Assembly: GCF_900302475.1 (NCBI RefSeq)
Contig: NZ_OMOQ01000001.1
Location: forward strand, 1,922,001 to 1,986,000
DNA: 64,000 nt
From: Defluviimonas aquaemixtae
GTDB lineage: Bacteria > Pseudomonadota > Alphaproteobacteria > Rhodobacterales > Rhodobacteraceae
Direction: 5' to 3'
Shown here: positions 16,286 through 28,787 of the stretch, one piece after another
Position numbering within the stretch: position 1 is the stretch's first letter
Layout of the letters: each line of letters begins with the position of its first letter
The notes under the pieces: model-generated
The model's database searches: none
Told to the model about the DNA's origin: nothing
The model's input: only the letters and a program-made list of their open reading frames with translations
Program-made: the position numbers and the translations under genes

Positions 16286-16975
16286 CTACACGCCGAGATG
16301 GCGCGCGACGGCATCTTCGCCCATATCCGCCATGGCGCCGTGCCAGACGGTCCGGCCGCGTTCCACGATGGCGGCGCGGTCGGCGACTGTCCGAAGGTCC
16401 TTCAGCGACTTGTCGATGACGAGGATCGAGATCCCCTTCCCCTTGAGCGCCCGGATCGCCGCCCAGATCTCGGCCCGGACGACCGGGGCAAGGCCCTCGG
16501 TCGCCTCGTCAAGGATGAGCGCCCTCGGGTTCGTCAGAAGCGCCCTGGCGATGGCGAGCATCTGCTGCTCGCCGCCCGAGAGCGTGCGCGCCGGCTGCCC
16601 CATCCGTTCGCCGAGACGCGGAAAAAGCTCGAGGACGCGGGGCAGCGTCCACTCGCCCGGCCGCGCGGCGACCGACAGGTTTTCGGACACGGTCAGGGGT
16701 GCGAAGCAGCGGCGGCCTTCAGGCACGAGGCCAAGTCCAAGCTGCGCGGCGCGGTGCGACGGCAGGCGCGAAATGTCCTGCCCGGCGAAACTGACCCGTC
16801 CTCCGGCGAGCGGAAGCATCCGCATGATCGTGCGCACGGTCGTGGTCTTGCCCATGCCATTGCGCCCGAGCAGCGCCAGCACCTCGCCCTCGGCCAACGC
16901 CAGGTCGATGCTGAACAGCGCCTGCACGGGCCCGTAGGCGGCCCGCACCCCGTCGAGCTCCAGCAGCACGGTCAT
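16286..16975 (-). CDS. livF: ABC transporter ATP-binding protein, LivF type
   Basis: Second ATPase of the branched-chain-amino-acid/aromatic-acid type importer. 229 residues with Walker A GRNGMGKT (37-44), signature LSGGEQQML (132-140) and Walker B ALILDEATEGL. The switch region reads ILVIDKSLKDL instead of the LivF pattern ILLVEQN, a variant I associate with importers of this family that serve aromatic acids. The ATG overlaps the livG stop as ATGA. It is the last gene of the anthranilate-type operon. Confidence 0.92.
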   Translation of the reverse strand: MTVLLELDGVRAAYGPVQALFSIDLALAEGEVLALLGRNGMGKTTTVRTIMRMLPLAGGRVSFAGQDISRLPSHRAAQLGLGLVPEGRRCFAPLTVSENLSVAARPGEWTLPRVLELFPRLGERMGQPARTLSGGEQQMLAIARALLTNPRALILDEATEGLAPVVRAEIWAAIRALKGKGISILVIDKSLKDLRTVADRAAIVERGRTVWHGAMADMGEDAVARHLGV

Positions 16976-17721
16976 GCGTCTTCCCCGAGGTAGGAGCGGC
17001 GCACCTCATCATTGGCGCGAATCGCGTCCACCGTGCCGGTCGCGATAACCTTTCCATAAACGAGAACCGAGATGCGGTCAGCGAGCGCGAAGACCGCATC
17101 CATGTCGTGCTCGACCAGCAGGATCGGCGCTTCGGATTTCAGCTCGGCGAGGATCGCGGTCAGGTCGCGCGCGCCTTCCGCCCCCATCCCGGCCATCGGT
17201 TCATCGAGCAGAAAGGCGCGCGGGCGCATGGCGAGCGCCATGGCGATCTCCAGCCGCCGCCGCTCACCATGGGCTAGCGCGGCGGCGCTGACGCCTTCCC
17301 GTCCGTCAAGCCCGGCCTGATGGATGTGGAAGAGTGCAGGGTCAGTCAGGCTACGGTCCGAGAGCGCCGGCCGGAAGAAGCGGAAGGTCGCGCCCGACGC
17401 CCCTTGAACGGCCAGCATGGTGTTCTCGAGGACCGTGAAGTCCGGGACCACCGAGGACACCTGAAAGCTCCGCGCGAGGCCGAGCCGGGCGCGCTCGGCG
17501 GGGCCGAGCCCGTCGATCGGCTGGCCCTCGAAGGTGATCGTGCCGGCATCCGGGCGCAGCTCTCCTGCGATCTCTTTGATGAGCGTTGACTTGCCCGCCC
17601 CGTTCGGCCCGATCAGCGCGTGGATCTCCCCCGGCCTCAGGTCAAGCGACACGTCGTCGGTCGCCTTCAGCGCGCCGAAGCTCTTCGTGAGACCGCGCAG
17701 GATCAGGATCGGCTCAGACAT
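16972..17721 (-). CDS. livG: ABC transporter ATP-binding protein, LivG type
   Basis: First ATPase of the importer, 249 residues: Walker A GPNGAGKST (38-46), Q-loop region, a signature of the diverged LAHGERRRLEIAMAL form, Walker B FLLDEPMAGM and switch histidine in LLVEHDMDAV. It overlaps livM by eight bases and livF by four. It works with LivF to power LivH/LivM. Confidence 0.92.
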   Translation of the reverse strand: MSEPILILRGLTKSFGALKATDDVSLDLRPGEIHALIGPNGAGKSTLIKEIAGELRPDAGTITFEGQPIDGLGPAERARLGLARSFQVSSVVPDFTVLENTMLAVQGASGATFRFFRPALSDRSLTDPALFHIHQAGLDGREGVSAAALAHGERRRLEIAMALAMRPRAFLLDEPMAGMGAEGARDLTAILAELKSEAPILLVEHDMDAVFALADRISVLVYGKVIATGTVDAIRANDEVRRSYLGEDA

Positions 17722-25765: not shown

Positions 25766-26502
25766 GCGTCGCCCCCGTTCAGCACGATCGCCTGTCCGTT
25801 GACCGCGGCAGCGCCGGGCGACGCGAGCCAAAGCGCCGAGGATGTCACCTCGGCGGGTCGGATGAGACGGCCGAGCGGGCTGGTCGCGGTTAGCGCGGCC
25901 AGCGCCTCCTCGCGCGTGCGCCCGGTCTTGGCCATGATGTTAACGACGGTGCGCCCGGTCATCTCGGTGTCGATGAAGCCGGGGCAGATCGCGTTCGCCG
26001 TGATTTCCTTCTTCGCCACTTCGAGCGCGACGGACCGGACGAGGCCCAAAACGCCGTGCTTCGCCGCCGTGTATCCGGCGGTGTAGGCGAGCCCCCTGAG
26101 CGACGCGACCGACGCGACGGCGATCAGCCTTCCGCCTGCGCTCATCCCCTTCAGCCCCTCGCGGAAGGTGAGGAACACGCCCGTCAGGTTCACCGCGAGC
26201 ATCGCGTTCCACTCATCGAGCGTCGTGCGGGTGAACGGCGCGCTATCGGCCGCCCCCGCATTCGCGATGACGATATCCTGGGGCCCGGCCTCCGCGAACA
26301 GCGCCGCGACGGAGCCTTCGTCGGTCACGTCGGCCCGGATCGCCCGGATTCCTCCGTTGCCGCGCGCCACCGTCTCAAGCGGCTCCATCCGGCGTCCGGC
26401 GATCACGACCTCCGCGCCCGCCTCGGAAAACCCGCGCGCCAGGTCCGCACCGGTTCCGGTGCCGCCGCCGGTGATGAGGACGCGCTTGCCCGCCATGCTC
26501 AT
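25762..26502 (-). CDS. Short-chain dehydrogenase/reductase
   Basis: Classical SDR of 246 residues: dinucleotide loop TGGGTGTG (11-18), NAG at 81-83, catalytic S131/S134 region, Y144 and K148 in YTAAK, and C-terminal [15 protein letters not shown]. Probably oxidises a 3-hydroxyacyl-CoA intermediate of the alicyclic beta-oxidation. The ATG at 26502 overlaps the stop of the large monooxygenase gene. Cofactor is not certain; the basic pair RR at 37-38 after the second strand suggests NADP. Confidence 0.87.
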
Positions 26503-28787
26503 GCCCGCAGCGCCTCCTGTTGCGCGCGCTCCTGAAGTCGGTAGGCCTGATCTCGGCCCCGCAGATAGGGCAGCGGCCACTCTACGCCTCTGTCGCCCAA
26601 GGCCACGGCGGCGTGGAGTGTCCAGTACGGGTCGGCGAGATGCGGCCGCGCGAGGCAGACGAGATCGGCCCGGCCCGCCATCAGGATCGAATTGACGTGG
26701 TCGGTCTCGTAGATGTTGCCGACGGCCATCGTGGCGATACCGGTCTCGTTGCGGATGCGGTCTGAGAACGGGGTCTGGAACATCCGGCCATAGACCGGCT
26801 GTGCCTCGGTCGAGGTCTGGCCCGCCGAGACGTCGATGATGTCCGCCCCCGCGTCGTGGAATCCCTTCGCAATCTCGACGGCGTCCTCGGGCGTGACGCC
26901 GTCAGCGCCGACCCAGTCATTCGCCGAGATGCGGACCGACATCGGCTTGTGCGCGGGCCAGGCCGCGCGCATCGCGCGGAAGACCTCCAATGGATAGCGC
27001 ATCCGGTCTTCGATGCTGCCGCCATAGTCGTCGGTCCGCTTGTTCGACACGGGCGAAATAAAGGACGAGATCAGATAGCCGTGGGCGGCGTGAAGCTCCA
27101 CCATGTCGAAGCCCGCGCGCTCGGCCATGCGTGTCGCTGCGACGAACTCGTCGCGCACGTGGTCCATGTCGGTGCGCGTCATTTCCCTGGGCCGCGCATG
27201 GTCGGATGACCACGGCAAGGGCGACGGGCCGATGATCTCCCATCCGTCATGGCCAAGCGGCATCTCGTCGTCTTCCCATGGCAATTGAACGGAGGCCTTG
27301 CGTCCCGCATGGCCGATCTGGCAGCAGATCTTCGCTTGCGTCTCGGCGTGGACGAACTCGACGACGCGGCGCCACGCCGCCTCATGCTCCGGCGCGTAGA
27401 GGCCGGGGCAGCCGGGCGTGATCCGACCCTCGGGGCTCACGCAGGTCATCTCGGTGTACACGAGCCCCGCGCCGCCTTTCGCGCGTTCGCCGAGATGGAC
27501 GAGATGCCAGTCGGTCGGACAGCCGTTATCGGCACGGTACTGCGCCATGGGCGAAACGACGACGCGGTTCGCCAGCATCATGTCGCGCAAGCGGTAAGGC
27601 GCGAACATCGGTGGCCGGCCCGGCTTGCCGCCAGCCTCCGCCTGGAACCAATCCTCGGCTTTTCCCAGCCAGTCCGGATCGCGAAGCCGCAAGTTCTCGT
27701 GGCTGATCCGTTGCGACCGGGTCAAGAGCGAATAAGCGAACTGCAGGGGCGGCATGTCGAGGTAGCGTTCGACCTCCTCGAACCACTCCATCGAGTTGCG
27801 CGCCGCCGATTGGAGCCGCAGCACCTCGACCCGCCGCTCCTCCTGATACCGCTCGAACGCCTTTGCCATCGTCGGCTCAGACTGCAGGTAGTCCGCCAGC
27901 GCGATCGCGCTGTCGAAGGCAAGCCGCGTGCCCGAGCCGATCGAGAAATGCGCCGTCGCGGCGGCGTCGCCCATCAGCACGACATTCTCGTGATACCAGC
28001 GATCGCACAGCACGCGCGGAAACTGGATCCACACCGCCGAGCCTCTGAGATGCGCGGCGTTCGACATCAGCTCATGCCCGCCGAGATGGTCCGCAAATAT
28101 CTTGCGGCAGGTCTCGACGTTCTCCTCCTTCGTCATCTCCTCGAAGCCCCAGCGGTCCCAAGTCTCGGGGCTGCACTCGACGATGAAGGTCGCCGTGTCG
28201 GCGTCGAACTGGTAGATATGTGCCCAGACCCAGCCATGCTTCGTCTTCTCGAAGATGAAAGTGAACGCGTCGTCGAACTTCTGATGCGTGCCGAGCCAGA
28301 TGAACTTGCAGCGGCGGGTGTCGATCTCGGGCTTGAAGACGGAGGCGTATTCGCGCCGGACGGTGGAGTTGAGCCCATCGGCCCCGACGACGAGGTCGTA
28401 GTCGAGCCGGTAACTCTCGGCCGTCTTGAACTCGGTCTCGAACCGCAACTCGATGCCCAGTTCCCGAGCGCGCTCCTGCAGGATGACCAGCATCCGCCGC
28501 CGGCCGATCCCGGCGAAGCCATGGCCGCCCGACACAGTCCTGCGGCCATCATGGACGACGGCGATATCGTCCCAATAGGCGAAGTGGTCGCGGATCGACT
28601 GTGTCGACTTGGGGTCGTTCTTCTCCATCCGTTCCAGCGCGTCGTCGGACAGCACCACACCCCAGCCGAACGTGTCGTTGGCACGGTTGCGCTCGATCAC
28701 GGTGACCTCGCGCGACGGGTCACGCAGCTTCATCGAGATCGCGAAGTAGAGCCCGGCCGGACCGCCGCCGAGACACAGGATCTTCAT
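26499..28787 (-). CDS. 2-Aminobenzoyl-CoA monooxygenase/reductase-type fusion (bifunctional salicylyl-CoA 5-hydroxylase/oxidoreductase)
   Basis: A 762-residue two-domain flavoprotein. Residues 1-385 form a class A FAD monooxygenase with GGGPAG (7-12), the [10 protein letters not shown] motif (about 134-143) and [17 protein letters not shown] (about 270-286). Residues from about 395 on form an old-yellow-enzyme FMN barrel ([24 protein letters not shown], then [28 protein letters not shown] and [17 protein letters not shown]). This fusion is the architecture of the anthraniloyl-CoA enzyme that hydroxylates and then reduces the ring. Start at ATG 28787; the GTG at 28793 is an alternative. First gene of the operon. 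Confidence 0.9.

Follow-up and report, generated by a model that had tools for sequence, protein, structure and literature searches.

A predicted operon for the uptake and aerobic breakdown of anthranilate as CoA thioesters in Defluviimonas aquaemixtae, preceded by a tandem palindrome

The 64,000-nucleotide stretch of the Defluviimonas aquaemixtae genome that was analyzed here (the window) harbors, from position 28787 down to 16286, a run of 13 co-directional minus-strand genes encoding a fused monooxygenase/reductase, an aryl-CoA ligase, enzymes of the beta-oxidation type, a MarR-family regulator and a five-gene LivKHMGF importer. This run very probably constitutes an operon that serves to import anthranilate and to degrade it aerobically in the form of CoA thioesters, likely to be fed by tryptophan via the kynurenine route in addition to external anthranilate. 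All 13 genes described in the original prediction for this DNA were present, and the gene-family names given there agreed with searches of NCBIfam and Pfam, which for the SDR, MarR, hotdog and LivK proteins used start codons at most two codons off the final ones. The genes and the palindromes preceding them are as follows:

26499..28787, minus strand, fused FAD monooxygenase/OYE-type reductase, candidate 2-aminobenzoyl-CoA monooxygenase/reductase (ACMR, abmA type), 762 amino acids (aa); NF006101, PF01494 and PF00724
25762..26502, minus strand, SDR dehydrogenase by family searches, 246 aa
25328..25765, minus strand, MarR-family regulator, proposed operon repressor, 145 aa; PF01047
24519..25331, minus strand, crotonase-fold protein annotated as enoyl-CoA hydratase, 270 aa; NF006107; residues I123, F143 and D152
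23331..24479, minus strand, acyl-CoA dehydrogenase family protein, 382 aa, TTG start; PF00441, PF02770 and PF02771
22912..23334, minus strand, hotdog thioesterase (4HBT_2), 140 aa; PF13279
22511..22915, minus strand, Rid-family protein, candidate enamine deaminase, 134 aa; PF01042; M108 at the position of the RidA catalytic arginine
20881..22500, minus strand, aryl-CoA ligase, candidate anthranilate-CoA ligase, 539 aa; identity to the pAL1 ligase and match to 4wv3
19661..20806, minus strand, LivK-type periplasmic binding protein, 381 aa; PF13458 (Peripla_BP_6 by family search) and PDB matches
18694..19608, minus strand, LivH-type permease, 304 aa; PF02653
17714..18697, minus strand, LivM-type permease, 327 aa; PF02653
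16972..17721, minus strand, LivG-type ABC ATPase, 249 aa; PF00005
16286..16975, minus strand, LivF-type ABC ATPase, 229 aa; PF00005
28834..28847, no strand, perfect 14-base palindrome TTTCAAGCTTGAAA (0 mismatches), proposed MarR operator, 46 bases before the first start codon
28848..28861, no strand, another copy of the palindrome, imperfect with 2 mismatches and immediately adjoining the first; a tandem operator is proposed

The genes had been said to overlap mostly by four bases, and such overlaps do occur at 7 of the 12 junctions (fusion/SDR, SDR/MarR, MarR/crotonase, acyl-CoA dehydrogenase/hotdog, hotdog/Rid, LivH/LivM and LivG/LivF), the rest being one 8-base overlap (LivM/LivG) and four gaps of 39, 10, 74 and 52 bases. 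The conservation of the gene run was checked in a set of relatives made up of the best 80 of 213 loci found, each ending at a 10-kb flank or, as in several of them, at a contig end; a gene was scored as present when it gave a match of at least 35% identity. No relative locus extends 12.5 kb past the fusion start, and the downstream counts, those of the importer above all, are lower bounds. The crotonase and the MarR gene were found in 75 loci each, the SDR gene in 73, the acyl-CoA dehydrogenase gene in 71, the ligase gene in 64, the Rid gene in 58 and the hotdog gene in 46, and the presence of the same core in most of the 80 loci indicates that the grouping is not due to chance. The source genome (4.24 Mb in 18 contigs, 99.94% complete) contains a single fusion match over the cut-off. 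The fusion is over the cut-off in 60 of 149 genomes taken from the order, the 149 all being listed as the same family, and two other genomes of the same genus in this sample are split, since one has it (G106) and the other is without a strong match (G099), which makes the operon patchy. Metagenome bins labelled Methylobacterium and Actinomycetota (L042, L045 and L052) contain fusions that are 78-79% identical to that of the window, as in Rhodobacterales, and these labels are perhaps binning errors rather than signs of transfer.

The fusion by itself had been regarded as the key marker of the anthraniloyl-CoA route, which turned out to be an overstatement. The protein scores 1287.5 bits to NF006101 (cut-off 1078), a family that NCBIfam names salicylyl-CoA 5-hydroxylase/oxidoreductase, and a fusion of the same family that is 55% identical to it in Cupriavidus taiwanensis (NZ_LT984809) has after it genes for a cupin resembling gentisate 1,2-dioxygenase, which at 311.7 bits stays under the TIGR02272 cut-off of 442.1, and for a FAH-family protein; an incomplete gene table lists no Rid, SDR, crotonase or ligase gene within 11 kb. 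Because the C. taiwanensis fusion sits beside a gentisate-dioxygenase-like gene, the fusion alone is no substrate marker, and it is the gene context that decides the substrate. The family name, the C. taiwanensis setting and the thioesterase encoded in the window operon would all suit a salicylate pathway, in which the fusion 5-hydroxylates salicylyl-CoA to gentisyl-CoA, the thioesterase frees gentisate, which then undergoes ring opening by a gentisate dioxygenase. Such a pathway is nevertheless highly improbable here: the window operon has no cupin or FAH gene, the Rid protein and the kynurenine genes described below suit an amine and not salicylate, and the closest relatives of the ligase, whether compared or solved, are anthranilate-CoA ligases. 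Moreover, no TIGR02272 match to a gentisate 1,2-dioxygenase was obtained in the source genome at E 0.001, in a search that gave weak matches in 4 of 14 control genomes and whose sensitivity is without a positive control. In a like search for the large subunit of anthranilate 1,2-dioxygenase, also without a positive control for its sensitivity and in which 6 of the 14 control genomes matched weakly, the best score in the source genome was 84.9 bits against a cut-off of 671.9.

The ligase is 53% identical to that encoded on plasmid pAL1 of Arthrobacter sp. Rue61a (NC_009453), and the fusion and Rid proteins are 49% and 34% identical, respectively, to their pAL1 counterparts. The best PDB match of the ligase is the anthranilate-CoA ligase 4wv3 (281 bits), followed by a benzoate-CoA ligase (254.7 bits) and by others with lower scores. 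According to the accessible text of the Arthrobacter study, the pAL1 ligase and its chromosomal paralogue showed anthranilate-CoA ligase activity in heterologous hosts, in E. coli extracts in the case of the plasmid ligase, and anthranilate-grown cells contained anthraniloyl-CoA (PMC3534580); we took the assayed plasmid ligase to be ARUE_RS22905 by its place beside the fusion gene. The fusion, the ligase and the gene set together give good support to assigning the window operon to the anthraniloyl-CoA pathway.

The surroundings of the operon in relatives suggest where the anthranilate may come from. A tryptophan 2,3-dioxygenase gene lies near the operon in 28 of the 80 loci and a kynureninase gene in 18, all of them among those 28; in Ruegeria pomeroyi the tryptophan dioxygenase gene is divergent and near the fusion, and in Aminobacter the kynureninase gene is located about 7 kb upstream. 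At least 10 of the 60 fusion-bearing genomes have a kynureninase match no farther than 10 kb from the fusion, nine with a match over the cut-off and one as short pieces only; this count covers the listed kynureninase matches, is given without a chance expectation and relies on near pairs chosen by eye from the listed rows, distances having been calculated for 13 genomes, of which 10 proved near and 3 far. Physical distance was used instead of co-occurrence, which is nearly uninformative as evidence because kynureninase is almost everywhere. The source genome has kynureninase and tryptophan dioxygenase genes side by side (C1:2130640-2132778). In genome G133, which is without a kynureninase match over the cut-off, two adjacent short matches (C1:1291318-1291989) are found about 4 kb from the fusion, and the gene looks incomplete. 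An alpha/beta hydrolase gene was also found near the operon in 12 of the 80 loci (L021, L022, L042, L045, L047, L050, L051, L054, L055, L061, L071 and L086), an alpha/beta hydrolase gene adjoins the tryptophan dioxygenase gene in Ruegeria, and the source genome encodes a 51% identical relative; a role as kynurenine formamidase was considered for the hydrolase and dropped, as the L051 protein scores over the cut-off of a hormone-sensitive-lipase NCBIfam family.

The best solved relatives of the LivK protein are 4evq and 4ey3, which we take to be aromatic-acid binding proteins of Rhodopseudomonas. In the available part of a study on such proteins, RPA0668 is described as binding benzoate, 4-hydroxybenzoate and salicylate and as clustering with ABC genes between two operons for the CoA ligation of benzoates (PMC3223731). 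Since both the relatives of LivK and RPA0668 bind aromatic acids, the importer is likely to take up an aryl acid. LivK, LivH and LivM genes were detected in at least 19 of the 80 relative loci, and importer-bearing operons are present in Paracoccus, Gemmobacter and Comamonas as well. The original prediction had pointed out that transport, activation, ring attack and beta-oxidation-type steps are together in this operon; the genes are indeed co-located, but the arrangement is not special, being the same in Paracoccus and Gemmobacter and much alike in Comamonas. That importer and ligase families accept several benzoates, as the accessible text on the R. palustris aromatic binding protein illustrates (PMC3223731), also bears on the substrate. 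Together with the score of the window ligase to the benzoate-CoA ligase family TIGR02262 (349.4 bits, below the 375.25 cut-off) and with benzoate-CoA ligases being its next solved relatives, it would agree with an operon for a substituted 2-aminobenzoate or some other aryl acid near anthranilate, anthranilate itself being only a side substrate. The repeated linkage to kynureninase and tryptophan dioxygenase, that is, to a route yielding anthranilate, argues against this alternative, which we regard as improbable. The anthraniloyl-CoA route that had been predicted, with genes for transport, activation, ring attack and beta-oxidation-type steps in one run, is supported by the gene set, by the ligase and by the kynurenine context.

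The region ahead of the fusion gene contains the tandem palindrome, which likely is the operator of the MarR protein encoded in the operon, as judged from its position and conservation; anthraniloyl-CoA as the ligand of this regulator is a guess. The TTTCAAGCTTGAAA site occurs at a single place in the source genome when at most one mismatch is allowed. When the 250 bases before the fusion gene were compared in the window and its 80 relatives, a site with at most two mismatches was found in 76 of the 81 upstream regions (20 with none, 37 with one and 19 with two, the remaining 5 being worse) versus 0.27 expected from dinucleotide shuffles. The 80 loci together span 1,545,665 bases and contain 61 sites with at most one mismatch, 60 of which fall within 260 bases before the fusion gene. 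A second copy (at most four mismatches, within 45 bases) accompanies the site in 54 of the 81 upstream regions, as compared with 1.14 when the rest of the sequence was shuffled, and its spacing is 14 bases in 38 cases and 15 bases in 12. Gemmobacter and Paracoccus have the site with no mismatch, Ruegeria with 2 and Aminobacter with 3, a weak match; it is not kept in Comamonas, Cupriavidus, Deinococcus and Arthrobacter, where the best matches have 5-6 mismatches. A consensus scan found no sigma-70-like promoter before the fusion gene. The palindrome was also tried as a regulon finder and set aside, since at most one mismatch leaves only the operon's own site in the source genome and, with two mismatches, 16 places were retrieved, two of them the operon's own, versus 8 for a reversed control pattern, the rest being near background. 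No match with fewer than 4 mismatches was present in the stretches fetched around the kynurenine pair, the phenylacetate (paa) cluster and two further candidate regions. A 4-mismatch palindrome lies 24 bases before the kynureninase start (L094 4588-4601), where it may reflect chance or perhaps a decayed or related operator.

The crotonase scores 486.2 bits to NF006107 (cut-off 330), and its active site was analyzed in an alignment of 74 sequences (window and 73 relatives); for this alignment and that of the Rid protein (57 sequences, window and 56 relatives), only relatives with at least 38% identity and 80% coverage were kept. The two positions that carry the catalytic glutamates in hydratases, presumably E144 and E164 in the rat numbering, are occupied by isoleucine (I123) and phenylalanine (F143) in 74 of 74 crotonases, all of which also have D152. 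The crotonases of Comamonas, Aminobacter and Deinococcus likewise are without both glutamates, whereas control hydratases from a divergent operon of relatives (L017 and L020) retain both. In the 1,2-epoxyphenylacetyl-CoA isomerase 4fzw, threonine and phenylalanine are found at the glutamate positions, and the aspartate that aligns with D152 is, we assume, the catalytic residue; the closest solved relative, 3g64, has Val, Phe and Asp and is named just 'putative enoyl-CoA hydratase'. Because both glutamates are replaced, in a pattern as in 4fzw, the crotonase is probably an isomerizing or ring-opening enzyme and not a hydratase, in agreement with an earlier guess that this hydratase-family protein might not be a plain hydratase. 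That it is an ordinary enoyl-CoA hydratase of the beta-oxidation phase, the ring being opened by an enzyme encoded outside the cluster, seems rather unlikely: it does fall into enoyl-CoA hydratase (or hydratase/isomerase) families in NCBIfam and Pfam, and certain crotonases may act on unusual enoyl-CoAs even when the usual acidic pair is missing, but the replacement of both glutamates across lineages, the sharing of their loss and of the aspartate with a solved isomerase, and the existence in some relatives of a separate nearby hydratase that keeps both glutamates all point away from it.

The Rid protein shows a parallel substitution. At the position of the canonical RidA arginine, which we take to be Arg105 in the PAR-S-C-V motif, methionine is found in 56 of the 57 aligned sequences (M108 in the window), leucine in one and arginine in none; the methionine is invariant in a seven-row alignment across lineages, and YabJ, when aligned, has an arginine there. 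Vinylogous enamines, to which the predicted product of the fusion belongs, are deaminated by certain members of the Rid family, 2-aminomuconate deaminase among them. The available part of a review gives the product of the Azoarcus fusion as 2-amino-5-oxocyclohex-1-ene-1-carbonyl-CoA, followed by 'beta-oxidation' (PMC4539516), and a C7H8O4 CoA ester, possibly cyclohexanedione-carboxyl-CoA, is reported in the accessible text on anthranilate-grown Arthrobacter (PMC3534580), which by analogy would fit the proposed product of the Rid protein. We tentatively suggest, as a possibility we hold with considerable doubt, that the NF006107/PRK08258 crotonase may be the missing ring-opening enzyme, hydrolyzing or isomerizing 2,5-dioxocyclohexane-carbonyl-CoA after a dedicated, arginine-less Rid protein has removed ammonia, and that enzymes similar to the PaaF-, PaaH- and PcaF-like ones encoded beside the operon in some relatives may finish the acyclic product. 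If true, this would complete the lower half of the pathway, whose later steps are unsettled in the literature read. In the plasmid operon of Deinococcus psychrotolerans (L116 16360-18773), a cyclase-family protein and a thiamine-diphosphate enzyme are encoded between the ligase and the Rid protein, and the latter enzyme could represent another kind of ring-opening step.

The absence of a thiolase gene from the cluster, as originally stated, was borne out. In relatives, a 3-oxoadipyl-CoA-thiolase-like gene lies near the operon in 10 of the 80 loci and is joined in 7 of them by genes for a PaaH-like dehydrogenase and a PaaF-like hydratase. This rhodobacterial trio scores below the adipyl-family cut-offs, so that a substrate one carbon longer is possible. 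In Aminobacter, genes for a FadJ-like protein and a 3-oxoadipyl-CoA thiolase follow the Rid gene in the same gene run, the thiolase scoring 674 bits to NF006551 (cut-off 605) and 662 bits to TIGR02430 (cut-off 597). In the source genome, the best relative of that thiolase (64% identity) itself passes the cut-off for 3-oxoadipyl-CoA thiolase and has PaaZ and PaaK genes as neighbors in the paa cluster, from where it could serve both routes.

Taken together, these results suggest the following pathway. LivKHMGF would import the acid and the ligase would form 2-aminobenzoyl-CoA, which the fusion, as judged from homologues and the known pathway, would hydroxylate and reduce to 2-amino-5-oxocyclohex-1-ene-1-carbonyl-CoA. 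The Rid protein would then remove the amino group as ammonia to give 2,5-dioxocyclohexane-carbonyl-CoA, the SDR and acyl-CoA dehydrogenase proteins may adjust the redox state, and the glutamate-less crotonase, from its residues, would isomerize or open the ring. A hydratase, a hydroxyacyl-CoA dehydrogenase and a 3-oxoadipyl-CoA-type thiolase encoded elsewhere, e.g. in the paa cluster, would finish the chain, as the relatives suggest; the hotdog thioesterase, at a guess, would free trapped CoA. The MarR protein is predicted to repress from the tandem palindrome at 28834-28861 and to be released by an aryl-CoA ligand.

Several observations weigh against parts of this proposal. In the source genome the kynurenine gene pair is 182 kb from the operon, and in the 12 kb around it the best palindrome has 4 mismatches. 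Kynureninase is over the cut-off in 139 of the 149 genomes, which makes its co-occurrence with the fusion weak (59 of the 60 fusion-bearing genomes and 80 of the 89 others; Fisher p = 0.05). Neither dioxygenase search had any of the 14 control genomes over the cut-off. The role proposed for the crotonase is drawn from its residues, and the annotated neighborhood on pAL1 (L112 12137-19050) encodes FAH-family, cupin and TesB-type thioesterase proteins and PaaX-type regulators where the window has SDR, crotonase, acyl-CoA dehydrogenase and MarR genes; these different neighbors may mean that the later steps differ between lineages, which counts against a universal crotonase role.

Other features were observed around these operons. 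The flanks of the window operon look unrelated to it, with a Na/Ca exchanger gene and MTTB-family genes on one side and Fur and enolase genes on the other. An MTTB-family methyltransferase gene past the 3' side of the operon (13431-14969, minus strand) scores 593 bits over the full profile and is without an in-frame stop, so that by this look it is not of the pyrrolysine kind. The Ruegeria (L092 18538-18990) and Gemmobacter (L117 17499-17951) operons include a gene for a 150-aa cupin (PF07883) that is not in the window, and the Ruegeria cupin gives a marginal match to the pAL1 cupin (E 0.012).

The tandem palindrome, the glutamate-less crotonase, the arginine-less Rid protein and the thiolase gene near the operon in 10 of the 80 relatives are newly described here, and neither the palindrome nor the link to tryptophan catabolism was part of the original prediction. 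A literature search, with subscription papers mostly outside its reach, retrieved nothing on the palindrome or on a kynureninase or Phaeobacter link, so that their novelty is unproven. In the accessible portion of their paper, the GapMind authors left out tryptophan breakdown via anthraniloyl-CoA monooxygenase/reductase, citing lack of knowledge (PMC9007349). The comparison with relatives supplies candidates for the deamination, ring-opening and thiolysis steps and for the control of the operon; in these clusters, the automatically assigned names 'salicylyl-CoA 5-hydroxylase' and 'enoyl-CoA hydratase' are probably misleading.

Among the known systems, the abm pathway of Azoarcus evansii shares with the window operon a CoA ligase, the fused monooxygenase/reductase and beta-oxidation-type enzymes, a likeness in gene content. 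The abm clusters (Schuhle et al. 2001) reportedly also encode a regulator resembling MarR, a binding protein of the ABC type and a putative inhibitor of translation, the last of which is probably a Rid-type protein; by its title, the 2001 paper is said to deal with two similar clusters in A. evansii, whereas the source genome has just the one fusion match. The window operon differs, furthermore, in having a full five-gene importer. A close counterpart is on plasmid 1 of Paracoccus denitrificans PD1222 (PDEN_RS25280-25340), where the same 13 gene types are found in the same order, with a fusion 80% identical to that of the window; only P. denitrificans has a divergent 3-hydroxyacyl-CoA dehydrogenase gene beside the operon and an alpha/beta hydrolase gene after it. 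Gemmobacter carries the same operon as the window, and in the importer-bearing operon of Comamonas the MarR gene is divergent and the thioesterase and Rid genes come last. In the part of an indole-degradation review that was available, its authors state that they verified a cluster of this kind with proteomic and genetic methods (Qu et al. 2017, cited in PMC6221969). As an operon, the window locus represents one more genome for an already known route that is apparently common in this group, and it appears to add a member to the 2-aminobenzoyl-CoA pathway known from A. evansii and proposed for Arthrobacter, in an all-in-one layout that is not unusual.

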